This document shows, in pieces, positions 5,435 through 53,587 of a stretch of 64,000 nucleotides of DNA. The notes beneath the pieces were generated by a model. It did not search any database. It saw only the letters and a list, made by a program, of their open reading frames with translations, and was not told where the DNA came from. Source of the stretch: Nocardia iowensis (GTDB lineage: Bacteria; Actinomycetota; Actinomycetes; Mycobacteriales; Mycobacteriaceae); assembly GCF_019222765.1 (NCBI RefSeq), contig NZ_CP078145.1:3534001-3598000 (forward strand), in the 5' to 3' direction. Numbering within the stretch: position 1 is the first letter of the stretch; every line of letters begins with the position of its first letter. The position numbers were made by a program, and so were the translations under genes.

Positions 5435-5712
5435 GCCGAGTCTCCATTCGATGCACGGCCGATTGGGCCGTGTGGAAATTCATTGCACAGGCAGGCGGAA
5501 TGCCATCGACCCTTACACCGGGTCCTTGCAGCGCTCTTGCACCCCACTGGCATGCAGCACCACACCAATTCGGAATACCCGCTCAGCCAACCGGGGTCGA
5601 TCGACGCATGTCCGGAATTCGGCACTACCGGATGCCCTGCGCGGCAGAAGATCTCGCACACGGCACGCGTGGCGACTTGGCCGCAGAACCGCCACCAATA
5701 CTGCAACGGCAT

Positions 5713-16639: not shown

Positions 16640-16811
16640 TCAACCAGGCACGGTTCGGACGGTGATCTCGGTTCTGTAGGTGGTGCGGTCGATCGGGCCG
16701 ATCCGGGCAAGCCACGACCGGTCGCCCAGCTGTTTGATCGAGGGCACCGGACGGCTGTCCTTGCAGCGGATCAAATAGGAGCCGAACACGGCGTCGATCG
16801 ACAAACTCGGC
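16640..16811 (-). pseudogene. IS4-type transposase fragment
   Basis: The minus strand reads SYLIRCKDSRPVPSIKQLGD, then RSWLARIG and TYRTEITVRTV. This resembles the strand-loop-strand region of actinobacterial IS4-family DDE transposases (pattern LIRCKSNRRLPV...DGSWLS). The catalytic residues are missing. It sits directly against the 3' end of the P450 gene. Confidence 0.45.
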
Positions 16812-35594: not shown

Positions 35595-35597
35595 TGT

Positions 35598-37055: not shown

Positions 37056-37711
37056 AGCGCTTCTCCTGCCTGTGCGGCGTGCGTGTGTGGCGTCGGGACG
37101 TGCCCGATACCGTTGGCGGTGCGTGCTTGTGCGAAGCCCTGCCATTCGTAGTTGTCGGTCTCGCCCAACTCGACCTGGTCGAGTAGGCGTGAGACGGTGT
37201 GATCCACCAGTGCATCGAGGGTTTCTGGGCGGCGATAGAACGCGGGCATCGGCGGGGCGATCACCACGCCCATCCGGCTCAGTGCGAGCAGGTTGTCGAG
37301 GTGGATGTCGTTGAGCGGGGTCTCGCGGGGCACGAGGACCAGCTTGCGTCGCTCTTTCAACGTGACATCGGCCGCGCGGGCGAGTAGCCCGTCGGCGTAT
37401 CCGCTGCGGATGGCGGCTACCGTCTTCATGCTGCACGGGGCCACGATCATGCCGATGGTGCGGAACGAGCCCGAGGAGATGGCGGCGGCCTGGTCATCAG
37501 GGCTGTAACTGACATCTGCCAGTGCCGACACCTCCCGTACCGTCCTCGATGTCTCCCATTCGATGGTGCTACGCGCCCATCGGCTGATCACCAAATGGGT
37601 TTGCACCTCAGGGATCTCGCGTAATCGTTCGAGTAGCCGCACCCCGATGATCGCGCCGGTCGCACCGGACATGCCGACGACGAGCCGGGCCGGTGTGTGC
37701 CGAGCAGACAT
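37052..37711 (-). CDS. UbiX/Pad1-type flavin prenyltransferase (VdcB/BsdB)
   Basis: 219 residues. FMN-binding motif GMSGATGAIIGVRLLE (13-28), IGMIVAPCSMKTVAAIRSG in the centre, and RKLVLVPRETPLNDIHLDNL for the dimethylallyl-phosphate pocket. It makes the prenylated FMN cofactor required by UbiD enzymes. The C-terminal extension (about residues 190-219, His- and Pro-rich) is unusual. AAGGAG lies nine bases before ATG 37711. Confidence 0.92.
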   Translation of the reverse strand: MSARHTPARLVVGMSGATGAIIGVRLLERLREIPEVQTHLVISRWARSTIEWETSRTVREVSALADVSYSPDDQAAAISSGSFRTIGMIVAPCSMKTVAAIRSGYADGLLARAADVTLKERRKLVLVPRETPLNDIHLDNLLALSRMGVVIAPPMPAFYRRPETLDALVDHTVSRLLDQVELGETDNYEWQGFAQARTANGIGHVPTPHTHAAQAGEAL

Positions 37712-37740
37712 AGGCGTATCTCCTTTCCTGAGCGCGAGCC

Positions 37741-38775
37741 CTATGGCCGGACCATGACCTTGATGGATTTGCGGTCGGCCATCGCGGCATAGCCGCGGGC
37801 GACATCGTCGAGGACTACCTCGGTGTCGAAGATCGGCGAGGGATCGATGCGCCCTGCCAAGACGTCGTCGAGCAGCTCCGGCAGATAGGCGCGCGCGGGG
37901 GACAGACCGCCCGCGACGCCGATATTGCGGCTGTAGAGGGTGGTGAGGGGTAGCCCGTCGATGCCGACCGGTTTGCCGACATAGCCGATCGTCGCGCCGT
38001 CGCGGGCGATATCGATCGCGGTTTGCCAGGTCTGGGCTCCGCCGACACATTCGAGTACCGCGCTCGCGCCCAGCCCGCCGGTCAACTCCAGCACCCGCGC
38101 CACCGCCTCTTCACCCCGCTCGGACACGATGTCGGTCGCACCGAATCGGCTCGCTATCTCGGCTCGTTCGGTGTGGTGGCTCAGCGCGATGACCTGTTGT
38201 GCCCCCAGCGATTTCGCTGCCAGCACGGCGCACAGCCCGACCGCGCCGTCACCGATCACCGCCGCCACCGACCCGTGCTCCACGCGCGCGCATCGGGCGG
38301 CGTGGCGGCCGGTGGCCAGCACATCCGACAACGCAAGCAGCTTCGGCAGCATCGAGTCGTGCACCGGCGGCGGTACCCGTACCAGCGTCCCGTCGGCGAA
38401 GGGCACCCGCACCGCCTCGCCCTGCCCGCCGTCGACCCCGCCGGTGCCCCACACGCCCCCGTTGGGGCACGAACTGTGCAGTCCGGCAAGGCAATACGGG
38501 CAGGTCCCGTCGCTCCACCGGAACGGGGCGATCACGAAATCGCCGACGGCGACGGTGCGTACTTCCGGGCCTGCGTCGATGATCTCGCCCACGAATTCGT
38601 GTCCTGCCCGCCGGCCGGGCTCGACCTGCTGGTCACCCCGGTACAGCCACAGGTCGGTACCGCAGATACCGCTGGCGTGCACTCGGACCACCGCGTCGGT
38701 GGGTTCGCGGACAACGGGGTCGGCGACCTCATCGATCTCGATGTCACCCGTGGCGTGGACAACAGCTGCTCGCAT
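37741..38775 (-). CDS. Zinc-dependent alcohol dehydrogenase
   Basis: 344 residues of the medium-chain dehydrogenase family. Catalytic zinc: GICGTDLW (Cys) and GHEFVG (His-Glu). Structural zinc: CPYCLAGLHSSC, which has three clear Cys. Rossmann motif VIGDGAVGLCAVLAA. In this operon it would oxidise an aryl alcohol to the aldehyde taken by the next enzyme. AAGGAG precedes ATG 38775. Confidence 0.9.
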   Translation of the reverse strand: MRAAVVHATGDIEIDEVADPVVREPTDAVVRVHASGICGTDLWLYRGDQQVEPGRRAGHEFVGEIIDAGPEVRTVAVGDFVIAPFRWSDGTCPYCLAGLHSSCPNGGVWGTGGVDGGQGEAVRVPFADGTLVRVPPPVHDSMLPKLLALSDVLATGRHAARCARVEHGSVAAVIGDGAVGLCAVLAAKSLGAQQVIALSHHTERAEIASRFGATDIVSERGEEAVARVLELTGGLGASAVLECVGGAQTWQTAIDIARDGATIGYVGKPVGIDGLPLTTLYSRNIGVAGGLSPARAYLPELLDDVLAGRIDPSPIFDTEVVLDDVARGYAAMADRKSIKVMVRP

Positions 38776-38917: not shown

Positions 38918-39277
38918 TTACGAGTCGCGCGGCACTGCCCGATCACCCATACGGAGCGGCTGGGCCGCGAAGGGGCCCTCATGCGCGAGCACCGGTCGAC
39001 GGTCGCCGGCCAGCTCCGGGTACTGCGTCTCGAGCCGTTGGCGCCGGGTCATCACTTGATGCCAATGGCGGATTGTGTCGCGATCACCGTTGCCGGTCGC
39101 GCGCCAGCTGGCCGGTGCCCGCGCCCGGTCGGGTCCGGGGTCGGCGTGACCGACCAGGCCCCCACCGGGAAGGCGGTGCGCTGGTGTCCCGCACGCCGAG
39201 CAGATCATTTCGGTGTCCGGCGGTGCCAGGTGTTCGAAACGGTGGCCGCGCCGGCATTTGTATTCGTAGAGAATCAT
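38918..39277 (-). CDS. FmdB-like zinc-ribbon protein
   Basis: 119 residues. The first 35 are an FmdB ribbon: YEYKCRRGHRFEHLAPPDTE, then MICSACGTPAHRLPGG. The canonical first CxxC is reduced to a single Cys before RRGH, while CSAC is intact. The remainder is polar, without motifs. ATG 39277 or GTG 39280 may be the start. Such proteins accompany amidases and aromatic operons, possibly as metal carriers or regulators. Confidence 0.75.
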   Translation of the reverse strand: MILYEYKCRRGHRFEHLAPPDTEMICSACGTPAHRLPGGGLVGHADPGPDRARAPASWRATGNGDRDTIRHWHQVMTRRQRLETQYPELAGDRRPVLAHEGPFAAQPLRMGDRAVPRDS

Positions 39278-39286
39278 CACAGCCGC

Positions 39287-40102
39287 CTAGCGGTAATGCC
39301 CGTGGGGCGCGAATCGCAGACTGTCCTTCTGGTGTTCGTCATGGCCGAAAATGACCTGGGCGTCGGTGCGCTCGGCGATCTGGCGCAGCCGCTGCACGCT
39401 CTCGAGCCACCGCACGTTGTCCCACACGATCGCCGCGCCCGCGGCCGGTGGACCCCAGTTGGCCTCCAGATACACCGCGTCGGAGGTGAACAGTTTGGTC
39501 CCCTCCTCGGGCAGATCCACCTGCAGCGACATGGTTCCCCAGCTATGGCCCGGTGACTCGACCAAGGTGACCCCGTCCAAAATTTCGGTGTCGCCGCTGA
39601 CGGGCTCGAAATTGATGCCGTCGAAGTCGTCAATGATGTAGGCGCCTGTCGATTCCGGCAGCCCGGCGACGCCGTCGATCTCGTCGGTGTGCGCGAATAT
39701 GCGGGTGTGGCCGCCGGTGAACATTTGCGCATTGGCGGCGTGGTCGAGATGCAGGTGCGACAGCACGAGGATGTCGATATCGTCGGGAGCCAGTTCCAGC
39801 TCCGCCAGCGCCGAATCCAGGAACCCTGGACCATCGACCGGCTCGCGCACCGGGAAATACTCCTCGAATCCCGTTGCTGACCACCGCGTTTCCCAATCCC
39901 GGGGTACGCCGGTGTCCCACAGCAGCGTCGCATCGGGATGGCGGATCAGCACGGCATGGGTGGGGCAGCCGACCCAGCGGCGGCGCATGTCCCGATGATG
40001 TCGATCCGCGATCGTGCGCCCACCCTGCAGGAGCAACCATGTTTCGTCGCATTCCATCGTGCCGGTGTCGAGTAGCTGCACCGTCATGTCCTGGCTGGTC
40101 AA
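39287..40102 (-). CDS. Metallo-beta-lactamase-fold hydrolase, AHL-lactonase-like
   Basis: 271 residues. The metal site SHLHLDHAANAQMF (HxHxDH) is complete. SPGHSWGTMSLQVDLP supplies the third His and LFTSDAVYLEANWG the bridging Asp. IFGHDEHQ gives the last His. The WDTGVPRDW segment before the motif resembles lactonases of the AttM/AiiA type. I prefer TTG 40102, five bases after a strong AGGAGG; ATG 40087 lies 19 bases away from it. First gene of the aromatic operon, so it could open an aryl lactone or ester. Confidence 0.8.
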   Translation of the reverse strand: MTSQDMTVQLLDTGTMECDETWLLLQGGRTIADRHHRDMRRRWVGCPTHAVLIRHPDATLLWDTGVPRDWETRWSATGFEEYFPVREPVDGPGFLDSALAELELAPDDIDILVLSHLHLDHAANAQMFTGGHTRIFAHTDEIDGVAGLPESTGAYIIDDFDGINFEPVSGDTEILDGVTLVESPGHSWGTMSLQVDLPEEGTKLFTSDAVYLEANWGPPAAGAAIVWDNVRWLESVQRLRQIAERTDAQVIFGHDEHQKDSLRFAPHGHYR

Positions 40103-40453: not shown

Positions 40454-41653
40454 CTATCGCGTCTCGGGTCGGTCGGGGAATAGTTCGCAGGCTCGCAAAG
40501 CAACGCGTAGCTCGGCGGTCGATACCGGATCGTCGAAGCTGACGCCGGTCAATTCCTGCACTCGCTGCAGCCGGTAGCGCACCGTATTGCGGTGGCAATG
40601 CAGGCGATTGGCCGCCTGGGGAGTCGAGCCGGCCGCGTCGAACCAGGCCCGGATCGTCTCGAGCAGCATATCCCGGTCCTGGACAGCTAGCGCCCGCACG
40701 GCGCCGAGGCGCCGGGTGATGAGTTCTGTTGCCTCCCGCGGTGCGGCCAGCAGAACTATCGCCAGCGGGTCGTCTCCGTAGACGCCGGCGCGTCGCGTGG
40801 TCCCCGCCAGACTCGCCAGCGCACGCCGGGCCTGCCGCAGCGCTTCGGCGGTTTCACCGATGTCGGCATACTCGATGCTGAGCCCGATCCGCGCGTCGGG
40901 ATGATCGTTGCAGAACTGCTGAACGAGTCGGCAGTCCGAATCGGCCAGGGACACGATCGCGACCTGCTCGTCGGCCGTGAGCCTGCGGACAATCCGCGCT
41001 GAATCGTTGGGTCGGCGTTGTATACCGACACCGACTGCCTCGAAGGGTTTGTCCTGGCGCGCTACCGCGACACAAAATCGACCGCGTAACGGTAGTCCCA
41101 GCGATTCGGCGACCGTTCCTTGCACGTCGGGATCTCGGCCGCGCCCGGCAAGCAGCGCCTCGATCAGAGTGCTCAGCCGCTGGGTGTCACGCTGGGCGCG
41201 CTCGACCGCCGCCTGCTGGTAGCCCTCGAGCAGTGTGCGGGTGCCCACGTTCACCGCGCTGAACATTCGATCGCTCAGCATTTCCCGCAGCACACGGTCG
41301 TCGTCGGGGATCAGCGCCGCAGCCGCCTCTCGGAACATACGCGTGGTTTCGAGCACCACCGAAACTATTGCGGCGAACGGAAACCCTGCCTCGGCGCGCT
41401 GCCAACCAGCCAGGAACAGATGATCGACGCGCATATCCGCTCCGGTCAAATGATTGCAGATCTGATCCAGCACCTCCCGCAACGAGCGTTCCATCCGGGA
41501 CTGCTGCTCGGGATCGAGATCGGCGACCTCGGGGATGACCTCGCGGGCGCGCGCGATCATCCTGCGCGCCAATTCCGGCACCCGATCACGCAACTGGCCG
41601 AAGACCGCTTCAGCCCGCGCATCCATGTCGTCGTGCACTCCAACTCGACCCAC
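40454..41653 (-). CDS. PucR/CdaR-family transcriptional regulator
   Basis: 399 residues. An N-terminal helical domain, a GGDEF-like central part, and a C-terminal helix-turn-helix: TPQAANRLHCHRNTVRYRLQ, then RVQELTGVSFDDP. This HTH_30 region is the hallmark of the family. GTG 41653 was chosen because AGGAGG lies seven bases upstream. It follows the P450 gene by 44 bp on the same strand and precedes the aromatic operon, so it could control either. Confidence 0.88.
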   Translation of the reverse strand: MGRVGVHDDMDARAEAVFGQLRDRVPELARRMIARAREVIPEVADLDPEQQSRMERSLREVLDQICNHLTGADMRVDHLFLAGWQRAEAGFPFAAIVSVVLETTRMFREAAAALIPDDDRVLREMLSDRMFSAVNVGTRTLLEGYQQAAVERAQRDTQRLSTLIEALLAGRGRDPDVQGTVAESLGLPLRGRFCVAVARQDKPFEAVGVGIQRRPNDSARIVRRLTADEQVAIVSLADSDCRLVQQFCNDHPDARIGLSIEYADIGETAEALRQARRALASLAGTTRRAGVYGDDPLAIVLLAAPREATELITRRLGAVRALAVQDRDMLLETIRAWFDAAGSTPQAANRLHCHRNTVRYRLQRVQELTGVSFDDPVSTAELRVALRACELFPDRPETR

Positions 41654-41697: not shown

Positions 41698-43074
41698 TCA
41701 ACCCCGGCCGCATTGTTTAGCTGGCGTATGGCTGGGGCCACCGCGCCGCCGGGCCACCATTGGTAGCCGCTCGGGCCGGATGACCACACCGCGAACAGTC
41801 GTGCGAACAGTGGTGTGCGGTACCGGCTCGAAGCGCCACTGCGTGGCGATAGTGGCCAGTTGAATGAGCAGTTCGGTCATGGCGAAGGAGTCTCCGGGGC
41901 ATTTGCGGGCCCCGGCGCTGAAAGGAATCGCGGCTTCATGACCGAATCCTTGACCGCGTTCGGGTGACCACCGCTGCGGATCGAACCGGTCGGGGTCGGG
42001 GAAGAACCGGGGGTCGTGATGGATCAGATACAGGCTCACCGCCACGACGCTGCCTGCCGGTATCACCGTCCCGCCTATCCGGAGGTCGGATTCGGTACGC
42101 ATCGGCACAATCCACGACGAGTACTTCCGCAAGACTTCCTGGATCACCCACCGCGTGAAGGGCAAGGCGTCCAGATGCTCGGCGGTCACGGGCCCGCCGC
42201 ATAGGACCGCGTCGAGTTCGGCGTACAACTGCTCGGCGATCGCGGCGTGTTCGGCGATCTCGTAGAGCGCCCATCCGAGCGCGGTAGCGGGTGTGTCGAC
42301 CCCGGCCTCGAGCAGTCCGCACATTTCGTCGACCACTTCGCTGTGGCTGAGCGGGCGGCCGAGTTCGGCGTCGGTGTCGAACAGCAGGGCCGATACCAGG
42401 TCACCGGTGTTCCCGCGGGTGCGTGCTTGTTGCACGACATCGCTCATGACCTGCCGCAATGCCGCTCCACAGCTACGCAGCCGACGATGGGATCGCAACA
42501 TCGACCACCGCAATGGCGCCGGTACCGCCCCCAGGTCGAAAGCCGCGGTGACGGCCCTGGGGAGGTGTGTCTGGACCGTGCGCAATTGTGCGGGTGCGAG
42601 GTGGGTGCCATACAACGCAGCGCACATGGTGGCCAGCGAGACAGTGAGCAGTTGCTGGTCGAGGTCGAGCGCCGCACCGTCGTGCCAGCTCCCCGTGACC
42701 GCCCGCGTTTGCTGCTCGATCGCGGCGACGTAACGCGGGATGGCTTGGGCGCGCAGGGGTGGGCTGTAGAGGCGGCGGCGGGCCCGATGCGCACGGCCGC
42801 TGATCACCGCCAGGGAACGGCCGAACAGCGCCTGACCGGCATCGGCCAGGCCGTCGCGGTTGACCCGTCCGCAGCGGCCGATCAGCAGCTCGTGTGCCAG
42901 GTGCGGATCGGTGAAGAGATAGACCGGTCGAGGGCCGAGCTGAAGTCGAACGATGTCCCCGTGTTCAGGCAGTGAACGCAGAAAGCCCAGCGGGTCGCGC
43001 CGCACCGGCAATGCGTGGCCGAGCAGCGGAAGCCGTCCGGGCGCGACGCCGACTCGGATTGCGGAACTATCCAT
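41698..43074 (-). CDS. Cytochrome P450 (class II-like)
   Basis: 458 residues, longer than the other two P450s. Heme motif PFSAGARKCPGDSFAMTE; I-helix LLEAGVDTPATALGW; ExxR in VIQEVLRKYSSW; PERF-type region DRFDPQRW. An N-terminal PPGP-like GRLPLLGHALPV is present without a membrane anchor. This layout is typical of CYP102/CYP110-like oxidases acting on fatty acyl or terpene chains. It lies 37 bp after the UbiA-type gene and should modify the product of that operon. Confidence 0.92.
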   Translation of the reverse strand: MDSSAIRVGVAPGRLPLLGHALPVRRDPLGFLRSLPEHGDIVRLQLGPRPVYLFTDPHLAHELLIGRCGRVNRDGLADAGQALFGRSLAVISGRAHRARRRLYSPPLRAQAIPRYVAAIEQQTRAVTGSWHDGAALDLDQQLLTVSLATMCAALYGTHLAPAQLRTVQTHLPRAVTAAFDLGAVPAPLRWSMLRSHRRLRSCGAALRQVMSDVVQQARTRGNTGDLVSALLFDTDAELGRPLSHSEVVDEMCGLLEAGVDTPATALGWALYEIAEHAAIAEQLYAELDAVLCGGPVTAEHLDALPFTRWVIQEVLRKYSSWIVPMRTESDLRIGGTVIPAGSVVAVSLYLIHHDPRFFPDPDRFDPQRWSPERGQGFGHEAAIPFSAGARKCPGDSFAMTELLIQLATIATQWRFEPVPHTTVRTTVRGVVIRPERLPMVARRRGGPSHTPAKQCGRG

Positions 43075-43111
43075 GGCTTGTTCCTTCCTCGAAGCGGGGT
43101 GGATTCGTTTG

Positions 43112-44035
43112 CTACCGCGGCAGTGCGGCGTGGGCGAGGAAGCCCAGGCAGCAGACCACGGCGAAAGCCACCGCCGTGGCGACCGGCCAGCTGCGGGTGC
43201 GTCGGAATCGCAGGGCGCCGTAGAGCGGCAGGATCAGCGCCAGCTGCGGGACCAGGGCGATCGCCAGGGCGCTGTGCTGGAACTGCCACGGCCGCGTCAG
43301 GCTCGCGTGCACCACCGACACCAGCACCGCCAGCGCCACGGTGATGGTGGCGCTGAGACCGGGGCCCAGCACGTCGCTGTAGAGGCGTTCTCCGTATTCG
43401 CCAGGGCGGGTCTTGCGCGCGAATTCGACGTGCATGAACAGTGCACAGAACACCACCATCAAGCCCACCAGCACCCTCGCGTCGGCGCGCACAGCTCCGG
43501 CCAGGACCAGTGACAGATAGAGGTAACCGCTCAGCAGCAGGTGAATGGGCACGGCCAGAACAAGATTGACGACGATGTCCGCACGCGCGGGCGGCCAGGT
43601 GTTCTCCACCGCCCACAACAGCAGGCCCGCGCCGAGGACGAGCAGCACGGCGACGCAGAGCGCGGGGGAGTACATATTGAGCAGCAACACCAGACCGGCG
43701 GTTATCCACCGGCCGGTCCGCAAATCGGTTGTCCGCACCGCACCGGTGACCAGCGGCCGACCCGGGTGGTGTATCCGGTCGTAGTCGAGATCCTTGTGTT
43801 CATCGACCATCCGCAGAAACAGCAACACCAGCACCACAGTCACCGCTCGGTCCACGCTGCCGATCCCCGGTGACCACGGCCGGTGACTGCCCACCGACAC
43901 CGTCAAGGCCTCGAACGACCACGCCAGCAACAACGCGACAGGTCCATGGACCCACGGCGGAAATCGCACGGCGACAAACCGGGTCAACCGCCCGAAACCA
44001 CTGTCGCGGGCCGAGGATTCAACCTCGATCGTCAT
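43112..44035 (-). CDS. UbiA-superfamily membrane enzyme
   Basis: 307 residues, about eight to nine transmembrane helices. The first Asp-rich motif is MVDEHKDLDYDRIHHPGRPL (about 76-95), the modified NDxxDxxxD loop. The second site is weaker (EYGERLYSDVLG). UbiA proteins transfer prenyl groups to aromatic or lipid acceptors; some cyclise terpenes. It overlaps the nitroreductase by 17 bases. AAGGAGGA precedes ATG 44035. Acceptor unknown. Confidence 0.75.
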   Translation of the reverse strand: MTIEVESSARDSGFGRLTRFVAVRFPPWVHGPVALLLAWSFEALTVSVGSHRPWSPGIGSVDRAVTVVLVLLFLRMVDEHKDLDYDRIHHPGRPLVTGAVRTTDLRTGRWITAGLVLLLNMYSPALCVAVLLVLGAGLLLWAVENTWPPARADIVVNLVLAVPIHLLLSGYLYLSLVLAGAVRADARVLVGLMVVFCALFMHVEFARKTRPGEYGERLYSDVLGPGLSATITVALAVLVSVVHASLTRPWQFQHSALAIALVPQLALILPLYGALRFRRTRSWPVATAVAFAVVCCLGFLAHAALPR

Positions 44036-44693
44036 CGGTGCCGTCCTCCTTCCACGCGTTCCAATGCACCCGGCCGGTGAGCTCAGCCCGCGCAGCAGGC
44101 TGGTGTGTGCGACCGGTGCGAAATCCCACCGGCAGCAACGCGATCTGCGTGATGCGCTCGTGGGGAATCCCGAGCACCGCGGCGACCTCGCGCTCGTAAG
44201 CCAGGTGCACGGTCGTGAGGGAGGAGCCGAGCCCACGTGCGTGCGCGGCGAGAAGAAAACTCCAGATCGCCGGGTAGATGGAGCCGTAATAGCCTGATAG
44301 GCGGGGATGGCCCGCCGCCAATGGCGGGCGCCCGTCCTGGCACACCAGCACGAGCACGGGCACTCGATGCAAATGGTGAGCGAGGAACCGCGCCGAATCC
44401 AGCACTCGCCGTGCCTCGGCGGGTACGTCCAGCTCCGATCCGATAGTCAGGCGCGCTTGATATTGGTCGAAGGCGTGCCGATAGAGTTCGGCCACGGCCA
44501 GTTTGGTGGCCGGATCGTCGATGGCGAGGAACTGCCACGCCTGACGGTTCGCCCCCGAGGGCGCGTAGCGTGCCACCTGCAGGCATTCATCGATGACTGC
44601 GCGCGGCACCGGCCGATCCAGATCCAGTCGGCGCCGGATCGCCCTGGTGGTGGTCAGCGCCTGGTCGATGTTCGATGTGGTCGAGGTGTTCAT
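44019..44693 (-). CDS. Nitroreductase-family flavoprotein
   Basis: 224 residues. The FMN-binding opening TTRAIRRRLDLDRPVPRAVI and APSGANRQAWQFLAI (about 44-58) are characteristic, as is SIYPAIWSFLLAAHARGLGS in the dimer region. It would reduce or desaturate a conjugated group using NAD(P)H or F420H2. ATG 44693 overlaps the AfsA-like stop (ATGA), with GGGAGG upstream. In the operon it may do the enone reduction that follows AfsA-type condensation. Confidence 0.85.
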   Translation of the reverse strand: MNTSTTSNIDQALTTTRAIRRRLDLDRPVPRAVIDECLQVARYAPSGANRQAWQFLAIDDPATKLAVAELYRHAFDQYQARLTIGSELDVPAEARRVLDSARFLAHHLHRVPVLVLVCQDGRPPLAAGHPRLSGYYGSIYPAIWSFLLAAHARGLGSSLTTVHLAYEREVAAVLGIPHERITQIALLPVGFRTGRTHQPAARAELTGRVHWNAWKEDGTDDDRG

Positions 44694-45667
44694 GTGCGAG
44701 CCACCTCCCACTGTTCGACGGCCCGGTTCGGCGATGGTGCTGAGGCAGCGGACCAGCCCAGGTTGATCTCGGCAACGGTCCTGTCGTGCTGGCGCAGGCG
44801 GCTGCGGGTCGAACCGTCGTCGGTGAGTTCGGTGTGGCAGGACAACGTCACATCCGGTTCGGCGATGAAAGCGAATTCCGCGCGCAGCGACCGTAATTGG
44901 AGGTGGCGTCCCCGGGCCGGGCACGCGATGGTCGAGAGCTGACGTGCGGCCTCGAGCTGGGCCATCCCGGGCACGTGATCGACCGGGTGATCGAACAGCG
45001 TGGGGTTGCGGGAGTCGGCGACGACCGTGGCCTCGATCGCGCCGTCACCCGGCACCACCGCCTCGATCAGCACGTTGAGCGGGTTGGTCCGCCCCACCGT
45101 GTAGGGGTGTAACCGGGTCGGTTCGACCCGGGCCGAGGGGGGATAGCCCAGCCCGCAAGAGGCCCGCCACTCGCGGCGCAGACGCTCGAACAGCTCCGGC
45201 GGCATCCAGGACGCGGAGAAATCGATCCGGGCAACCGTGCGGTCGCCGACCCGTACCTCGTTCTCGCAGATTGCGCCGACGAGCTGCTGCTCGCGGTGGA
45301 AACGCCGCACGAGCCGGCAGTGACAGACCACATCGAGCGGAGTGTCGCCGATGCGCAGGGCATCAGGTTCGAGGATCTGCGCGTTGACCCAGCGAATGAG
45401 GAACTGCTGGGGCAGTGGCACTGCCTCGTAGGTGTGGGCCAAAGCGAACGATCCTTGCCGAGCGACCTCCACGAGCAGCAGCAGATCGTGGCAGGCATGC
45501 GGGTCGTCGCAGCCGTCGGAGAAAAACGGGTGCCAGCGCGGCAGTTGCGCGGCGAAGCCGTAGTGGTTCTCGTCGACTCGGTCGACCGCGGTGACGAATA
45601 CCTCGCTGTTGGCGTGCCGGTGCACCAGTCGCCGATCCAGGGTGTGCGCGAAATTCAGTGCGGTCAT
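44690..45667 (-). CDS. AfsA-like gamma-butyrolactone synthase (double hotdog)
   Basis: 325 residues. Two AfsA repeats: LVHRHANSEVFVTAVDR (14-30) with LLVEVARQGSFALAHTYEAV (64-83), and FDHPVDHVPGMAQLEAARQL near 228-247. The ExxRQ catalytic pairs are present in both (EVARQ, EAARQ). AfsA/ScbA enzymes join a beta-ketoacyl thioester to dihydroxyacetone phosphate to build butyrolactone signals. Here the gene is not next to a TetR receptor but inside a seven- or eight-gene operon. Overlaps both neighbours by ATGA. Confidence 0.85.
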   Translation of the reverse strand: MTALNFAHTLDRRLVHRHANSEVFVTAVDRVDENHYGFAAQLPRWHPFFSDGCDDPHACHDLLLLVEVARQGSFALAHTYEAVPLPQQFLIRWVNAQILEPDALRIGDTPLDVVCHCRLVRRFHREQQLVGAICENEVRVGDRTVARIDFSASWMPPELFERLRREWRASCGLGYPPSARVEPTRLHPYTVGRTNPLNVLIEAVVPGDGAIEATVVADSRNPTLFDHPVDHVPGMAQLEAARQLSTIACPARGRHLQLRSLRAEFAFIAEPDVTLSCHTELTDDGSTRSRLRQHDRTVAEINLGWSAASAPSPNRAVEQWEVART

Positions 45668-46581
45668 GACACACCTACCCCGCGGGCCGAAGCTGTCCGG
45701 ACCATCGGCAGCACTGCGGATCCGACGACGATGCTGTCCCAGGGATCGGGTGTTTCGTCGTGCTGATAGGCCAGGCGCAGGACGGCGGCCAGCCGGGCGC
45801 TACGATCGTTGCCCGCCGCGTCCCACGCGACGCGCACCGCGTCGGCGAAACCATTGTCCGCCTGCTTGATTCGCTGGCGCGCCCAGTGTTCCAGCGCGTC
45901 GGCGGCATCATCGAAATGCAGGCTGCGCGCCGGAGTCCGGTCGTAGAGTTCACCGATCAGCGCCTCGGCCTCGGCACTGCGATCGCGGCCCGTCAGTGCC
46001 TCGGTGATGACGTGGGTGCGGGTGAGTTCGTCGAAGTAGATCGCGAGCTCGCGTATCAGGTCGGCGGAGTCGTCGGGGGTGTGCACCAGGTTGAGCAGGT
46101 AACCGAAATCGCCAAGAGTTTCGCGTAATTGGCCGGGTGTGCGCGCACGAGGATCAGCGGGTCCCTTGGCGGCGGTCAAGGCCGCCGTTGCCGCAACCGT
46201 GTCGGTGCCGGGGGTGAGTACGAGTACCAGCGCGTCGGCGAGTCCGCACAGCAGATCTGCCAGTATTCGCCGTTCCCGGCTGGCGTGGCGCCACGGTTGG
46301 GTCCACAACGCGCGCGCCAGGTGCCGGTCGGGGCGTCCGCACCGGGCGGCGACAATCCGGAAATCGTTGGCCGCCAGCCATTGCAGGCACGGTTGGAGTC
46401 GGCGCCCGATGACGGCATCGGGTTTGCACAACAAGATCGCGTGCTGGTGCGCGAACGCCACCGGGTCCTCGACCAGTGCGCTCAGCTGCTCGAAGCTTTC
46501 GGAGAAATAGAGGTCCTCCTCGACATAGCGGCGCAGCTTGTCGGTATCGGCGCTTAGCGGCGCATCCAGTGCCAGAGTCAT
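45664..46581 (-). CDS. NDP-kinase-like domain protein
   Basis: 305 residues. Residues about 47-185 follow nucleoside diphosphate kinase: ILLCKPDAVIGRRL (Lys53 of KPDAV), WLAANDFRIVAARC, KGPADPRARTPGQLRETLGD and LNLVHTPDDSADLIREL, in which His167 sits at the phospho-His position. The usual GSD after it is TPDD. A C-terminal helical extension of about 120 residues is unlike housekeeping NDP kinase. It may use or bind a nucleotide for the nucleotidyltransferase encoded just upstream. Overlaps both neighbours. Confidence 0.7.
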   Translation of the reverse strand: MTLALDAPLSADTDKLRRYVEEDLYFSESFEQLSALVEDPVAFAHQHAILLCKPDAVIGRRLQPCLQWLAANDFRIVAARCGRPDRHLARALWTQPWRHASRERRILADLLCGLADALVLVLTPGTDTVAATAALTAAKGPADPRARTPGQLRETLGDFGYLLNLVHTPDDSADLIRELAIYFDELTRTHVITEALTGRDRSAEAEALIGELYDRTPARSLHFDDAADALEHWARQRIKQADNGFADAVRVAWDAAGNDRSARLAAVLRLAYQHDETPDPWDSIVVGSAVLPMVRTASARGVGVS

Positions 46582-48248
46582 CGAGATTCCTTTCCGGCGT
46601 CGTCGAGCACGCCATAGGCTTCCTCGTAGCGCAGGCCCAGACCCAGGGTGAGATTGAGCTGTCCCCAGGTGCGCCCGACCTGATCCATCCGTTCGATGGC
46701 TTCGCTGGACTCGAGGTAGGTGCGCACCCGATCGCAGCCGCTGACCTTGCCCACGTCCGCGGCCAAACGGTCCAGCAGTCCCAGCCGGTGCGCGCCATCG
46801 TCGGCTGAGCTGATGGGGCCGGCCGCGGCGCGCGCGGTGGAGTCGAACATGGTGCGGTGCTCGCACCGTAATCGGCGCAGGGTGAGCATGACGTCGCTGT
46901 CGGGGGGCAGCGGTTCGATCCCGTGGGCGGTGAGGATTTCTCGGGCGAGGTAGGTGAGCATTGCTGTCGAGGCCGCGGTCGCGGCCGTCCAGTCCTGTTG
47001 TGCGAGCGCGCCGATCATGTCCTCGCGAGTGGCGGCGAAAAAGATGACGGCCCACAACAATTCGGTTCCGCATCGGGCAAAGCGTGGCGCGGGCAGCGGC
47101 GAGAGGGTGATGTCGTCGTCGGGTGCGATCGGGGCGCCGGATAGTGTCAGCGTGATATCGGTGCGGGCAGGCGGGGGAGTCAGCGGCGCGAGGGGTGGGC
47201 ATTCGGGCTGCCAGGGGATCAGGGGGGCCTCGGCGTCGTGGCCCAGAGTGATGAAGCCCAGCCGCAGGAACTCGGCTACGGTCGCGGCTTGATCGGGGTG
47301 CGCGGCGAGTGTCTCGGTGAGTGGCTGGTCGGCTCGTAGGTTGCGCCACAGCTGGGCGGCGTTGTCGTTGAGCACGAAAACGTCGGTTCGGTCGCGGATG
47401 AGGTGCATTCGTCCTGAGGAGTCGAATTCCGCGACGTTCTCCGCCGGGGTAAGGACCAGGCACGCAGGTGTGTCGGTGACCGTCGACCACCCGGTGTGGC
47501 GGGCGAGGTCAAGGGCGGCGGTAGTGAATTGCGCGGGGCCGCAACCGTCTGCGCGTCCGGCACTGTCGAGGAGATCACGATATTCGGCGGCGAGCGGGCC
47601 ACTGCATCGATCCAGTTGGTGGTCGAGCCATTTCATCTTCAGATAGCTCTCACCGCGCCGCGCGACATATGCCTTCATGGCCTGCTGCAGGCCGTTGCGT
47701 GCCCAGCCCGCGGCCGACTCGTGCTGCGAGAGTGCGTTCAGCCCCACCGCGTACCACAGCGATCGGCGGGCCTGCATCGCCCACCAGCGCGACACGATGT
47801 AGGCGAGCTCCTCGCGGGGCAAAACAGCGCGCAGTTCGTCGGCGAGGTCGGGGTTGGCCAGCACGACCCCGCCCAGGAACCGTTGGCAGCGGTCGAGGTC
47901 ATCCTCGGTGAGTTGGTCGAGACCGGTCTCGGACGTGGCACTGGCCTTGATCCACCGCAGTTGCACGGCGAGCTGACCCGCCGACAGCATTCGTACTTCG
48001 ACGCGGCGCCCCGGCGGGTACAGGATCTTGCGCAGCAGCGGGTACTCCTGGTCACCGGGGTGAATGAGCAGGAAGTCGACGTCGGAGCTGCTATTGGCGA
48101 ACCCCTCCGCGTGTGAACCCTCGAGCAGGACCGCCGCCTCGGAGGGCACATCCACCGACGCGGCGACCGAGGCCAGCAGCGTTGCCATCTCATGCGGCGT
48201 GATAGCACTGCCGACGCTCGGCTCGTTCGAGATAGCCAGGTCGATCAT
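46578..48248 (-). CDS. Nucleotidyltransferase with internal PqqD-like segment
   Basis: 556 residues. The pol-beta-type nucleotidyltransferase site is LLEGSHAEGFANSSSDVDFL (41-60): GS with the DxD pair Asp56 and Asp58. A helical HEPN-like region follows. Residues about 285-337 resemble the PqqD/RiPP-recognition fold: VFVLNDNAAQLWRNLRADQP, then TVAEFLRLGFITL. The C-terminal 200 residues are helical with no motif I know. I infer transfer of a nucleotide or phosphate-linked group to a carrier or small molecule. Overlaps both neighbours by ATGA. Confidence 0.65.
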   Translation of the reverse strand: MIDLAISNEPSVGSAITPHEMATLLASVAASVDVPSEAAVLLEGSHAEGFANSSSDVDFLLIHPGDQEYPLLRKILYPPGRRVEVRMLSAGQLAVQLRWIKASATSETGLDQLTEDDLDRCQRFLGGVVLANPDLADELRAVLPREELAYIVSRWWAMQARRSLWYAVGLNALSQHESAAGWARNGLQQAMKAYVARRGESYLKMKWLDHQLDRCSGPLAAEYRDLLDSAGRADGCGPAQFTTAALDLARHTGWSTVTDTPACLVLTPAENVAEFDSSGRMHLIRDRTDVFVLNDNAAQLWRNLRADQPLTETLAAHPDQAATVAEFLRLGFITLGHDAEAPLIPWQPECPPLAPLTPPPARTDITLTLSGAPIAPDDDITLSPLPAPRFARCGTELLWAVIFFAATREDMIGALAQQDWTAATAASTAMLTYLAREILTAHGIEPLPPDSDVMLTLRRLRCEHRTMFDSTARAAAGPISSADDGAHRLGLLDRLAADVGKVSGCDRVRTYLESSEAIERMDQVGRTWGQLNLTLGLGLRYEEAYGVLDDAGKESR

Positions 48249-50926
48249 TGTTGCGTCCTTTCGTTCGTGTCCTGGGCCGCGGCCTGCTCGGCGGCGGCGA
48301 GGATGGTGATCGAGCCGGTCCCGCCGTCGATGCGTAGCCGGGTGCCGGTGGTTAGGCGGTCGGTGATGCCGGGTGCCTGGACGATGGTGGGGATGCCGAG
48401 TTCGCGGGCGACGATCGCCAGATGGGTCAGCGGGCTGCCGCGTTCGATGATCAGTCCCGACGCTGAGGGCAGTACCGAAACCCACCCTGGGTCGGTGCGG
48501 TAGGCCACCAGGATTCCGCCCTCGGCGTCGACCGGGGTGTCGGTGACCACGGCGGCGGCCTCCACCACACCGGCACACGACGGGATGCCCTGCAACACGG
48601 GTCCCTGGCTGGGTGTGGGGGAGTCGGTGGCGACGAATCCGGCGTCGCGCAACAGGTTCGCGTCGTAGGGAAAGCCGTGGGTGTCGAATCGTGCCGGTGC
48701 ACGCAGCTTTTCGTCGGCGGCCAGTCGCGCTCGGCGTAGCTCGACCACCCGGGCCAGGTCTGCGGGGTCGGCCGTGCCTTCGAAGCAACCGCGCAGTTCC
48801 TCGAGACGCAGCAAGAAGACGTCGGTGTCACGGGCCAGGACTCCTCGACGCGTGAGGCCACGCCCGAGCGCACGCATCATCCGCTTCTTCGTGCCGAAGG
48901 TTCGGGTGCGGCAGAAGCGGACTCGTTCTCGGTAGCCCAGCCCGCGGCGAACCTTACGGCGCAGCCATTCGAAAACCAACCGGCGCGGGCCGTGCAGATG
49001 CTGGGCCAGATATTGCTGCGCGGCGTCGTTGCCCTCGGCGCGAGTGACCGGTACCTGCCGTAGGAAGGTGACCAGCAGTGCGGGGTCATCACGCAGGCTC
49101 GGTGATTCCAGCTTCAATTCGTCGGGACTGCGGTAACCGAAATCGTCGAGATAGCGGTCGATGTCGGCCAGCAGCGAGGTTTTGCCGGCCGCCCGCAATG
49201 CGTCGAGCAGTTCGGCGGGCGGGACTCGATCCAGCAGCGTCGCGGCATCGGGGTCGGCCTGAATCGCGGTGGACAGCTCGATCAGCGCCGCCGCGGGCTC
49301 GGCCGATTCGATGTCGGGTCCCGGTGCGACGACCGCCCAGGGAAACCAGGTGGGCGCGTGAGGCAGCCACCGGTTGGCCAGACCGAACAACAATGCCCCG
49401 CAGGTGAGCAGGACCGCATCCAGGACGAGTATCGGCCCGGTGGCGATGACGTCATCGCGTTCGAATTCCCGCAGCAGCCGATAGATTTCGTCAGCGGAGA
49501 AGGTTTCGTAGTCGATGCGCTCGTAGCGAGCCTGCCAGCCGGGGTACTCACGCAGATAATGCTCGGCGAGCCGTTCGACGGTCACTATCTTGCGCAGATA
49601 CACCAGCGCCGAGCGGGTCCGCCACCACAGGGCGCGCGGGCGTGAGCTGAAATCGAACGGGTGTAGCTGCTGGGCGAGTTCGTCGTCGAGGGGCTCCGCG
49701 ACACCGAGTGAGACTTCGAGCATCGCGCGGTTGAGCCGATATCCCGGCGCGATGCGCACCATCCGATACCAGTGCAGCAGGTTGTAGTGCACCCGATGAT
49801 GGAAGCTGCCCAGCATGTAGGGAAGCCAGCGGTCCATCTGCAACAGCTGCTGTTCGGGAACCGCCAGCGACCGCGCATACTCCCGATACAGCCGACCGTA
49901 CATATCGGCGGCGACGGTGAAGGTCAGCGGCGAGGACGCGCCGCCGAAGTTCTCGACAATATTCGAGTTGTCCCAGATACGTAGTTCGCCTCCACCAGGA
50001 TCGAGGTCTGCGGCCGGGCCGGTGGTGATCGGGCGCGACTGCAGGACCCACACGGTGTCGTCCGTGATGGCCCACTCGATGTCCTGATCGGTGCCGAACA
50101 CGGCCCGCACCCGATCCGCGAGATCGCACAGTCGGCCTATTTCGCTGTCGGACAACGAGAAACGGGCACGGTCGGCGTCAGGCACCGATTGGACCGCCAA
50201 TCCGCCGTTGGCCGCGCACACCGTTTCGAGCTGTTTGTTCCCGACGGTTCTGGTCACGACGTCGCGCCGGTTGTCCAGGACGATGGTGTCGGCATCGACC
50301 ATTCCCGACACCAATCCTTCGCCGAGACCGAAGACCGAACTGATGATCGTGCGCCGCGCTCCGGTGATCGGATCGCGGGTGAACATCACCCCGCTGCAAT
50401 CGGCGTCGACCATGGTCTGCACGATCACCGCGATTCCGTCGGAAGACAACGGAATACCGCGCTGGCACCGATATCGCAGGGCGCGTTCGGAATACGCCGA
50501 CGCCCAGCAGTCGATGATCGCCTCGACCACGGCTTCGAAATCGAGCACATTCAAAAAAGACGCGAATTGTCCCGCGAACGAATGGCGGTTGCCGTCCTCC
50601 TCCAGCCCCGACGAACGCACAGCCACGGGAAACCCGCCCACCCGGTCCACCGCACGCGCGGCCGCATAACGCAGCCCTGACGAAGAGGAAAGCCGCCGCA
50701 ACAGCGCCGCGATGTCGTCGGCGGCCTCGCCCGGCTCACGATCCTCGGCTCGGCTGATCAACGCTTCCCAATCGGCGCCGACATCGTGACCGTCGAGGAA
50801 GTTGCGAAAGTCTGCTATCTCCAGCACTGTCCATTTCGGCACGAGCAGACCGCGATCACCCAGTATCCGAAGGTTATTCGCCTTTCCGCCGATACCCGGC
50901 CGGGGAACATCATTTCCCGTACTCAT
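48245..50926 (-). CDS. PEP-synthase-like phosphotransferase
   Basis: 893 residues in the three-part layout of rifampin phosphotransferase and PEP synthase. An ATP-grasp-like N-terminus has GGKANNLRIL, FPVAVRSSGLEEDGNRHSFA and SGVMFTRDPITGARRTIISS, with VWVLQSRPIT at its end. A long central part carries SNIVENFGGASSPLTF. The C-terminal swivel His domain has ERGSPLTHLAIVARELGIPT (His about 835). PEP synthase has a PEP/pyruvate barrel that is not seen here. It therefore resembles enzymes that phosphorylate a small-molecule hydroxyl with the beta-phosphate of ATP. First gene of the operon; ATG 50926 follows GGAGG. Confidence 0.8.
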   Translation of the reverse strand: MSTGNDVPRPGIGGKANNLRILGDRGLLVPKWTVLEIADFRNFLDGHDVGADWEALISRAEDREPGEAADDIAALLRRLSSSSGLRYAAARAVDRVGGFPVAVRSSGLEEDGNRHSFAGQFASFLNVLDFEAVVEAIIDCWASAYSERALRYRCQRGIPLSSDGIAVIVQTMVDADCSGVMFTRDPITGARRTIISSVFGLGEGLVSGMVDADTIVLDNRRDVVTRTVGNKQLETVCAANGGLAVQSVPDADRARFSLSDSEIGRLCDLADRVRAVFGTDQDIEWAITDDTVWVLQSRPITTGPAADLDPGGGELRIWDNSNIVENFGGASSPLTFTVAADMYGRLYREYARSLAVPEQQLLQMDRWLPYMLGSFHHRVHYNLLHWYRMVRIAPGYRLNRAMLEVSLGVAEPLDDELAQQLHPFDFSSRPRALWWRTRSALVYLRKIVTVERLAEHYLREYPGWQARYERIDYETFSADEIYRLLREFERDDVIATGPILVLDAVLLTCGALLFGLANRWLPHAPTWFPWAVVAPGPDIESAEPAAALIELSTAIQADPDAATLLDRVPPAELLDALRAAGKTSLLADIDRYLDDFGYRSPDELKLESPSLRDDPALLVTFLRQVPVTRAEGNDAAQQYLAQHLHGPRRLVFEWLRRKVRRGLGYRERVRFCRTRTFGTKKRMMRALGRGLTRRGVLARDTDVFLLRLEELRGCFEGTADPADLARVVELRRARLAADEKLRAPARFDTHGFPYDANLLRDAGFVATDSPTPSQGPVLQGIPSCAGVVEAAAVVTDTPVDAEGGILVAYRTDPGWVSVLPSASGLIIERGSPLTHLAIVARELGIPTIVQAPGITDRLTTGTRLRIDGGTGSITILAAAEQAAAQDTNERTQQ

Positions 50927-51292: not shown

Positions 51293-52135
51293 ATGCGACC
51301 GGACATCGGAAAGATCGGAGTGTGGCGACTGGCCTCCGAGCTGTCGATCGGTCTGATCCGGCAACTCGAACAACTCGGTTACGCCACCGTCTGGATCGGT
51401 GGCTCCCCGCCCGGTGATCTGGCACTGGCCGAGTCACTGCTGGACGCAACCGAACACGTCACGATCGCCACCGGCATCGTCAACGTCTGGAGCTGTTCCC
51501 CCCACGAGGTCGCCCACAGCTACCACCGCATCGCCGACCGGTACGGCAGCCGGTTCCTGCTCGGGATCGGGGTGGGCCATCGGGAGGGAACAGCGCGATA
51601 TGAGCGACCCTACGACACGCTGACCCGCTGGCTCGACGAACTCGACGCCGCCGGTGTGCCCACCGACCGGCGTGTGCTCGCGGCCCTGGGCCCCAAGGTC
51701 GTGTGTCTGGCCGGGTCGCGCACGGCCGGCGCGCACACCTACCTGACGACTCCCGAACACACCCGTCGAACTCGTGTGCTGCTCGGGGCCGGCCCGTTGC
51801 TGGCCGTGGAGCAGAAGGTGGTGTTCGATACCGATGCCCAGCGAGCCCGGGCGCTGGGTCGAGCGGTGATCGTCAACCCGTACCTCGGGTTGACCAACTA
51901 CATCAACAATCTTCTGCGACTGGGCTACTCGCGCGATGAGCTGCGCCAGGGCGGCAGTGACCGCCTTATCGACGCGCTCGCCCTGCACGGCGACGCGAGC
52001 ACCATTGCCGGCGGGCTGCGCGCTCACCTCGACGCCGGCGCCGACCACGTATGCCTGCAGTTGCTTTGCCAGCCGGGCGAGGACCCTGTGCCGGCCTATC
52101 GCGCGCTGGCAGCAACCTTGATCGATCCGGCGTGA
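51293..52135 (+). CDS. LLM-class F420/FMN-dependent oxidoreductase
   Basis: 280 residues of the luciferase-like barrel. LEQLGYATVWIGGSPPGDLA, VTIATGIVNVWSCSP and GSRFLLGIGVGH are the recurring blocks of mycobacterial/Nocardia F420-dependent oxidoreductases of the TIGR03620 kind. GAGGA lies seven bases before ATG 51293. It is divergent from the PEP-synthase-like operon and could supply a redox step to it, or may be independent. Confidence 0.85.
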   Translation: MRPDIGKIGVWRLASELSIGLIRQLEQLGYATVWIGGSPPGDLALAESLLDATEHVTIATGIVNVWSCSPHEVAHSYHRIADRYGSRFLLGIGVGHREGTARYERPYDTLTRWLDELDAAGVPTDRRVLAALGPKVVCLAGSRTAGAHTYLTTPEHTRRTRVLLGAGPLLAVEQKVVFDTDAQRARALGRAVIVNPYLGLTNYINNLLRLGYSRDELRQGGSDRLIDALALHGDASTIAGGLRAHLDAGADHVCLQLLCQPGEDPVPAYRALAATLIDPA

Positions 52136-52162
52136 CCGGGTCGAGTTCGACAGGAGGATCCG

Positions 52163-53587
52163 ATGGTTCCGATTATCTCGCGTCGCGGAAGGTATCGCTG
52201 CGGGGCAGTCCTGCTCGCGTTGGCCGTCGTAGCCGGCACGCCCGCCGCGACCGCTGCCCCTGAGGACACCCCTGGGGCCCCACCGGTTCCGGTACAACCG
52301 GCATTGCCGTTCCCGATACCGCCGCTACCGCCAGAATTCGATTCCCAGTTCTATTCGCCGCCGCCCGAGGTCGTCGCCGGCAAGCAGCCGGGCCAGATCA
52401 TCGCCGCACGCGAGGTCCATCTCGCGTTCTACTCGGTCATCCCCCTCAACATCGACGCCTGGCAGCTGTCCTACCGCTCCACCAACACCCGCGATGAGCC
52501 GATCGCGGCGGTTACCACGGTGATGAAACCGCGCGGCGATGATGGTGGCCGCCCGCGCCCGCTGCTGTCGTATCAGTTCCCCGAGGACGCCAACGCCCAA
52601 TACTGCGCACCGTCCTACTCCTTACAGCAGGCTTCGATTCCGGGTAACATCTCCGGCCAGTTCGACATACCGTTCGAATTCTTGCTCGCACCCCTGACCG
52701 CCCTCGCGGCCGGGTGGGCGGTGGCCATGCCCGACCATGAGGGCCCGAACTCGGCATTCGCGGCCGGCCCGCTGGCCGCCAGAATTGTCCTGGACGGCAT
52801 CAGAGCGACCGAGAGCTTCGCGCCCATGGGCCTGACCCCCGACACCGAGGTCGGCCTGGCCGGATACTCCGGCGGGGCGATCGCCACCGGCCACGCCGCC
52901 GAGCAGCACGGCTCCTACGCGCCCGAACTCAATATCGTCGGCGCGGCCGAGGGCGGGGTGCCCGCTGACCTGAAAGCCATGATCAACCTGTCCAACAACA
53001 ACCTCGGCTCCGGCCTGATTCTCTCCGGAATCCTCGGGGTGGCCCGCGAATACCCGCAACTGGCTGCCTACCTCGACCAGCGGATGAACGGCTTCGGCAA
53101 GGCGATCGCGCCGATCAAGAACTCGTTGTGCCTGTACTCAGCCGCGATCTTCCCGTTCATGAACAACAAGGGCCTGATCGACTCTCCGGGGGACCCCCTC
53201 GACGATCCGGTGCCCGCCGCCGTCTTGGACACCATCCGCATGGGTCACGCGGTCCCTGATGTCCCCATGTTCATCTATCAAGCCAACCCGGACTGGATCG
53301 CGCCCGTCGGCCCGGTCAACGCTTTGGTCGACACCTACTGTGCCGACCCCCGAGCGCGGGTGCAGTATGTGCGCGACCACTTCAGCGAACACATCTCATT
53401 GGAGATCATCGGAATCCCTCGCGCGTTGCTGTGGCTGGCCGACCGCTTCGCCGGACTTCCCGCCGACGGCTGCGGCACGCACGACGAAGGCTCGATGGCC
53501 CTGGACCCCAGGACCTGGCCGCAGTGGCTGCAAACCGCTGGAGCCATCCTCGCGGGAGTCTTCCAGCAACCCATCGGCAGCCGCTGA
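52163..53587 (+). CDS. Secreted lipase, LIP family
   Basis: 474 residues. A signal peptide of about 31 residues (core VLLALAVVAGTPAATAAPE) precedes a Pro-rich linker. The lipase fold of the secretory LIP family has WAVAMPDHEGPNSAFAAG and the nucleophile GLAGYSGGAIATGHAAEQ (GYSGG). The Asp and His lie near PDWIAPVGPVNALVD and FSEHISLEI. Cys pairs (QYC, SLC, TYC, GCG) suggest disulphides. Likely a triacylglycerol or wax-ester lipase acting outside the cell. AGGAGG precedes the ATG. Confidence 0.9.
   Translation: MVPIISRRGRYRCGAVLLALAVVAGTPAATAAPEDTPGAPPVPVQPALPFPIPPLPPEFDSQFYSPPPEVVAGKQPGQIIAAREVHLAFYSVIPLNIDAWQLSYRSTNTRDEPIAAVTTVMKPRGDDGGRPRPLLSYQFPEDANAQYCAPSYSLQQASIPGNISGQFDIPFEFLLAPLTALAAGWAVAMPDHEGPNSAFAAGPLAARIVLDGIRATESFAPMGLTPDTEVGLAGYSGGAIATGHAAEQHGSYAPELNIVGAAEGGVPADLKAMINLSNNNLGSGLILSGILGVAREYPQLAAYLDQRMNGFGKAIAPIKNSLCLYSAAIFPFMNNKGLIDSPGDPLDDPVPAAVLDTIRMGHAVPDVPMFIYQANPDWIAPVGPVNALVDTYCADPRARVQYVRDHFSEHISLEIIGIPRALLWLADRFAGLPADGCGTHDEGSMALDPRTWPQWLQTAGAILAGVFQQPIGSR

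Follow-up and report, generated by a model that had tools for sequence, protein, structure and literature searches.

Nocardia iowensis carries an operon that places an AfsA-type gene among genes for proteins resembling a phosphoenolpyruvate synthase (PPS), a nucleotidyltransferase (NT), a nucleoside-diphosphate kinase (NDPK; Pfam family NDK), a nitroreductase (NTR), a UbiA-type membrane enzyme and a cytochrome P450, raising the question of what is made by such a combination. The operon occupies positions 41698–50926, minus strand, of a 64,000-nucleotide stretch (the window) that corresponds to 3.534–3.598 Mb of the 8.95-Mb single-contig genome. Here we show that its gene set and order are kept across genera, confirming that it is a genuine gene unit and more than a chance assembly, and we propose that it is probably a divergent member of the biosynthetic clusters exemplified by the Salinispora spt locus, the products of which are of the salinipostin/cyclipostin type. 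By analogy with these clusters, the product is most likely a butyrolactone phosphoester with an alkyl group that comes from elsewhere.

In the direction of transcription, the PPS-like gene (48245–50926) is followed by the genes for NT (46578–48248), the NDPK-like protein (45664–46581), AfsA (44690–45667), the nitroreductase (44019–44693), the UbiA-like protein (43112–44035) and the P450 (41698–43074, 37 bp downstream of the UbiA-like gene), and then by a PucR-type regulator gene (40454–41653; Pfam PucR HTH_30), all on the minus strand. Reading frames are open in all eight genes, and the recomputed spacings are −4, −4, −4, −4, −17, +37 and +44. The tightly packed minus-strand operon of the original prediction, with its five stop/start overlaps and its 37-bp and 44-bp gaps, is upheld with one correction: the overlaps chain six core genes, from the PPS-like to the UbiA-like gene, and the P450 gene is the seventh. 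The 44-bp gap is valid only with the PucR start at GTG 41653; the alternative ATG at 41713 would place the regulator in overlap with the P450 gene.

Searches for relatives of NT at three taxonomic levels gave matches in 28 of 301 family genomes, 71 of 150 genus genomes and 8 of 396 phylum genomes, sets that overlap and that include weak matches (E of about 4e-4; one in the family, one in the genus and two in the phylum set). An alignment search of a named genome collection with NT gave 146 encoding stretches, the best 80 of which were kept as loci. Within these best 80, where genes cut by contig ends count as missing, NT was counted in 80, a reductase of the SDR type in 79, PPS in 78, NDK in 72, AfsA in 71, UbiA in 71, a fatty-acyl-AMP ligase (FAAL) in 67, NTR in 40 and P450 in 36. 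PPS, NT, NDK, AfsA and UbiA lie on one strand and in conserved order in every one of the 70 named loci that hold all five, with PPS, NT and NDK followed by AfsA and UbiA; UbiA stands ahead of AfsA in five, all of them from Micromonosporaceae (L110, L112, L115, L125 and L127). These loci come from Nocardia, Streptomyces, Kutzneria, Salinispora and others, spanning several actinomycete families, and the window has the five genes in the same conserved order. Both the proposal that AfsA and the phosphoryl- and nucleotidyl-transfer enzymes form a kept set and the expectation that a single pathway would show as gene order conserved across genera are borne out by this recurrence.

The conserved set fits a described cluster. 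In one Salinispora locus (L125) a PPS-like gene is followed by genes for an AMP-binding ligase, NT, a NAD_binding_4 reductase, NDK, UbiA, a luciferase-like oxidoreductase and AfsA, extending from PPS at 5611 to the AfsA end at 16768 (11.16 kb) with a trypsin-like frame next on the opposite strand; a second (L127) gives the same matches in the same order. The AfsA search found a single AfsA gene in each of the two Salinispora genomes (two matched stretches of one frame in each), located in these loci. Reportedly, homologous clusters in many actinomycetes were described by Kudo in 2020, and Creamer in 2021 is said to have described spt-like clusters outside Salinispora. The S. tropica spt cluster is listed as of butyrolactone type, with salinipostin as product and a figure of 11.1 (PMC7888443), and another study ranks spt among the two Salinispora cluster families of widest distribution in its set (PMC8609351). 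A third describes salinipostins, cyclipostins and cyclophostin as bicyclic enolphosphates that share structural features with A-factor-type butanolides (PMC6681047). Because the conserved gene set matches a Salinispora locus that fits spt by length and by its sole AfsA gene, we consider it probable that the window operon is spt-like. The original prediction held that no described pathway has this set; that claim is not supported, a match to a known cluster being the outcome that it had itself named as telling against it.

The window and Salinispora spt share the PPS-like, NT, NDPK-like, UbiA-like and AfsA genes, on one strand and in the same general order, but they differ in several respects. 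Where the window has a nitroreductase, Salinispora has a luciferase-like/F420-type oxidoreductase between UbiA and AfsA; AfsA precedes UbiA in the window and the reverse is true of Salinispora; and the window has an added P450. Above all, Salinispora spt includes the acyl-AMP ligase and the thioester reductase, whereas the window is without both.

To place this absence in context, we compared 112 related loci, some species appearing twice, of which 95 hold PPS, NT and AfsA. All 95 of these AfsA-bearing loci have a thioester reductase (NAD_binding_4) between NT and NDK (70 of 70 for the named records alone), and a fatty-acyl-AMP ligase (at least 35% identity) is found in 81 of the 95 (58 of 70), so that the ligase is not strictly defining for spt-like clusters. 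In most NT relatives this ligase is fused to NT or sits just ahead of it. Among curated models, those of fatty-acyl-AMP ligases come closest to the ligase and that of the thioester reductase domain to the SDR protein, all with scores under the cut-offs, and together the two proteins would make the long alkyl alcohol in canonical clusters. Neither gene was detected by tblastn anywhere in the window (best E 0.15 for the reductase and 0.57 for the ligase), which disposes of the idea that the alkyl-chain genes have been displaced nearby, and the 4-nt overlaps of PPS with NT and of NT with NDK leave no space for either. Genome-wide, beyond the second cluster discussed below, the best-scoring reductase match is 32% identical and the best-scoring ligase match 38% identical (150 of 195 ligase candidates scored), both outside the window. 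Since the reductase is present in 95 of 95 AfsA-bearing loci and the window has none, we describe the window as a variant working like spt rather than as a full member.

Partial likenesses to this arrangement exist. Streptomyces spt-like clusters (for example, L121 and L142) resemble the window in having no ligase between PPS and NT, as do loci from two species of the genus of the window (L179 and L180), but all of these keep the reductase. Kutzneria sp. CA-103260 also has two spt-like clusters (L066 and L186), in the latter of which the stretch read shows NT directly after PPS, without a ligase. There is, in addition, a sister class of loci without AfsA, NDK and UbiA (L090, L103, L109 and L131; also L041, L042, L058 and L181) that keeps the ligase–NT, the thioester reductase and a distant PPS-like gene; L103 has as extras an ABC transporter, an FtsX permease and two thymidylate-kinase-like proteins. 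The sister class, for example L103, fits a separable phospho-alkyl module, and the window is its reverse, with butyrolactone and phospho genes but without alkyl genes.

Several points weigh against the assignment to the spt type. What ties the operon to spt is its anatomy, together with the length and the single AfsA gene of the Salinispora locus, and the window AfsA does not group with that of Salinispora, which has a separate branch. The end branches of the window copy are long, and no control has as many broken conserved columns as its NT. The window operon alone, without ligase and reductase, cannot make salinipostin by the assumed route. In addition, the spt listing RS20900–RS20940 implies nine locus tags as against the eight clear genes that we count (PMC7888443), and the entry for spt in another table is 13,368, a figure of uncertain meaning (PMC8609351).

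The genome of N. iowensis holds three AfsA genes (six matched stretches in three places): that of the window, one in a second, complete spt-like cluster (L037) at about 2.118–2.129 Mb, with a P450 to 2.133 Mb, and one at 4.83 Mb, around which PPS, NT, NDK and UbiA were all not found within the 12 kb read. The second cluster has counterparts of the six core genes and of the P450 of the window and, unlike the window, carries a 1176-residue ligase–NT fusion and the reductase; the named loci nearest to it are from Nocardia. Its proteins are 35–49% identical to those of the window and far apart from them on the tree, which argues against a recent duplication of the second cluster as the source of the window copy. 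In a quick concatenated PPS–NT–NDK–UbiA tree (41 rows chosen from 86 PPS, 89 NT, 78 NDK and 79 UbiA rows; midpoint root, no bootstrap; L186 without PPS and L139 without NDK), the window copy groups with Streptomyces, Kutzneria, Rhodococcus rhodnii and Micromonosporaceae (SH-aLRT 100) and away from the Nocardia-type cluster with which it shares a genome, although its end branch of 1.07 is long and leaves its exact position unsure. Trees and conservation counts omit hits that cover less than 60% of the query. The AfsA tree agrees weakly with the concatenated one (fork 92/76). There, the Salinispora and Paractinoplanes AfsA proteins branch separately, next to an AfsA of Kutzneria that is encoded outside such clusters (99/89, with a long-branch flag). 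This grouping and the UbiA-first gene order suggest that AfsA may have been replaced in Micromonosporaceae clusters, a reading that the long branches make unsure. Spread on plasmids was considered and set aside, NT having no match among PLSDB plasmids.

Domain matches above the Pfam cut-off in the operon proteins are PPDK_N plus PEP-utilizers, NDK, AfsA, Nitroreductase, p450 and PucR HTH_30. The PPS-like protein combines the PPDK_N ATP-binding domain with the His-bearing PEP-utilizers domain, in which His835 is retained; Pfam gives these two only, with no match to a phosphoenolpyruvate-binding barrel. It scores above the cut-off of one equivalog model named phosphoenolpyruvate synthase (NF004881, 937.9 versus 883) and below those of the NCBIfam models for RedH, PigC and rifamycin phosphotransferase. 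The nearest solved sequences, 5fbs/5hv1, are deposited as phosphoenolpyruvate synthase and are what we take to be rifampin phosphotransferase. NT is a stand-alone, DUF6001-like protein, with Pfam NTP_transf_2 and DUF6001 only below cut-off, and its predicted fold (mean pLDDT 91.1) resembles nucleotidyltransferases in a structure search. Residues 1–255 (47484–48248, minus strand) would form an aminoglycoside-nucleotidyltransferase-like fold with G44, S45, D56, D58 and E84; residues 264–338 (47235–47459, minus strand) give a middling match, which may be chance, to a small domain resembling the recognition element of ribosomally synthesised and post-translationally modified peptides (RiPPs); and residues 386–507 (46728–47093, minus strand) would form a HEPN-like helical domain within the C-terminal part, the region remodelled in the window sub-type. 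The second of these domains raised the idea of a RiPP cluster, which was rejected: the stretch aligns in all 28 NT relatives with nothing specific to the window, no precursor-peptide search having been made.

The NDPK-like protein has an NDPK fold with a helical C-terminal extension (model pLDDT 92.5; Foldseek returns NDPKs) and retains K53, N164 and H167. Judged from its sequence, AfsA is an AfsA-type butenolide/γ-butyrolactone synthase, matching Pfam AfsA at 2.2e-36 in two stretches and NCBIfam ScbA_BarX_GamBu at 198.3 bits, slightly below the cut-off of 200. The nitroreductase-family flavoenzyme is proposed to act as a butenolide reductase. The UbiA-like protein of the window retains D78/D82/D86 and E204-x-ARKT while giving no Pfam match and an NCBIfam prenyltransferase match far under cut-off; two of its relatives reach Pfam UbiA slightly below cut-off. 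A UbiA-like gene is a regular component of spt-like loci, including those with fatty-acid ligase and reductase.

To our knowledge, the assembly of the rare phosphotriester of these compounds was still called unknown in the last account given of it. We infer that the product class needs three things: a butyrolactone, which AfsA would supply with a flavin- or F420-type reductase; an alkyl alcohol, which would come from the ligase with the thioester reductase; and two new phosphate ester bonds, for which the PPS-like, NT, NDPK-like and UbiA-like proteins would be responsible. AfsA enzymes condense a β-ketoacyl thioester with dihydroxyacetone phosphate, and in the window this step would give a butenolide phosphate that the nitroreductase could reduce. 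The PPS-like, NT and NDPK-like proteins might then activate the butyrolactone phosphate, and the UbiA-like membrane enzyme may help to link the phosphate to an alkyl group, yielding a phosphodiester or a cyclic enol-phosphotriester, part of which the P450 could oxidise. Elsewhere in the genome, the best match of the window P450 (291.6 bits; the next scores 233.1 among 29 matches that include itself) is the P450 located about 3 kb past the second cluster, and a P450 at least 30% identical to it is found in the stretch read of 38 of the 95 loci with PPS, NT and AfsA (23 of 70 among named records); these sequence comparisons favour the P450, though not PucR, as a member of the pathway. Having lost, or never had, the ligase and reductase, the window copy would use an alkyl group that is borrowed (for example, from the second cluster), short or of another kind. 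A long chain is not required in the product class, given that the chemical name of cyclophostin includes a methoxy group (PMC6681047).

Three other explanations were weighed against this reading. That the genes are chance neighbours or belong to a new, unrelated pathway is very improbable: NT has no Pfam name above cut-off, and literature searches found no paper describing the gene set and nothing useful on DUF6001, a search for spt9 yielding no gene table, but strand and order are conserved in 70 of 70 named loci from several actinomycete families, which refutes a chance neighbourhood. It is also unlikely that this is a plain γ-butyrolactone signal cluster whose phospho enzymes do no more than produce or trim a free butyrolactone. 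In favour of that reading, the synthesis of such signals is known to hinge on AfsA, which is what the window shares with classical AfsA/ScbA/GblA loci, and Kudo in 2020 reportedly found that the Salinispora spt cluster also yields free butyrolactones. Of ten further AfsA loci, however, one (L186) is spt-like and the other nine are without PPS, NT, NDK and UbiA, which indicates that ordinary AfsA loci do without these enzymes. The signal loci described in Rhodococcus comprise gblA, the TetR receptor gene gblR and often gblE, with flanking genes that are not conserved (PMC5735094); no TetR family member was present among the 20 window proteins scanned at 34–59 kb (where 39277–39933 is probably no gene), and PucR and WYL regulators were seen.

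Decay, in which the window would be a drifting remnant of an spt-like cluster after loss of ligase and reductase, is improbable too, if slightly less so than a signal cluster. To gauge it, we defined conserved columns as positions at which 97% or more of the other rows agree, used each other row as a control, and excluded loci without AfsA (class II) and non-spt AfsA loci. In NT, 24 of 82 such columns are broken in the window, as against 19 in the worst control row; the window branch is very long; and the flanking genes are not common to other loci. Yet eight frames are open, six core genes overlap, the residues taken as catalytic are retained in the window enzymes, and in the other core proteins the breaks do not exceed those of the worst control (given in brackets): 12 of 187 for PPS (16), 2 of 35 for NDK (6), 1 of 25 for AfsA (6), 0 of 31 for NTR (16) and 6 of 33 for UbiA (12). 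Furthermore, a 557-residue stand-alone NT of Nocardia sp. NPDC050175 (P0008) itself breaks 20 conserved columns. With it in the alignment the window NT breaks 23 of 81, concentrated beyond residue 345 (16 of 34 versus 7 of 47; Fisher p 0.0024), and 16 of these 23 fall at positions also broken in P0008, six with the identical letter, so that the changes look old and kept. The same strain has an NDPK-like protein (P0033) that is 53% identical to that of the window, its best match after the window's own. These comparisons suggest a rare maintained sub-type with a remodelled NT, of two members only, rather than decay. More tentatively, it is conceivable that this salinipostin sub-type, comprising the window and Nocardia sp. 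NPDC050175 (the latter judged by NT and the NDPK-like protein only), works without fatty-alcohol genes of its own, the UbiA-like enzyme joining the butyrolactone phosphate to a different group, such as a prenyl chain oxidised by the P450. In that case, the ligase/reductase module would be the former partner of the remodelled C-terminal part of NT.

Neighbouring genes do not appear to extend the spt-like operon. Divergent from it, at 51293–53587, are genes for an F420-dependent luciferase-like monooxygenase (LLM) oxidoreductase and a secretory lipase (LIP). As pathway members, the flanking lipase, LLM oxidoreductase, metallo-β-lactamase and PucR were rejected, having no relative in the 112 related loci (tblastn, E 1e-8); when the search was rerun with controls, the best E was 0.004, whereas the two databases searched yielded 782 and 306 hits to core proteins. 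For PucR we regard membership as uncertain. Because lipases are among the enzymes hit by cyclipostin-type compounds, the lipase gene might encode a target or a resistance function. On the minus strand at 34164–38775 lie adjoining genes for a UbiD decarboxylase, an aldehyde dehydrogenase, a UbiX-like flavoprotein and a zinc alcohol dehydrogenase, likely an aromatic-acid pathway.

Salinipostin- and cyclipostin-type compounds act on lipases and other serine hydrolases, with antimalarial and antimycobacterial activity reported (PMC6681047). If the sub-type reading is true, the operon would specify natural phosphoesters of a new class, acting as serine-hydrolase inhibitors or as signals. More generally, the window copy amounts to a natural gene removal, in which the phospho and butyrolactone genes are kept and both presumed alkyl-chain genes are absent; set side by side, its product and that of the complete second cluster of this cell would tell the enzymes responsible for the phosphate chemistry from those that determine the tail.

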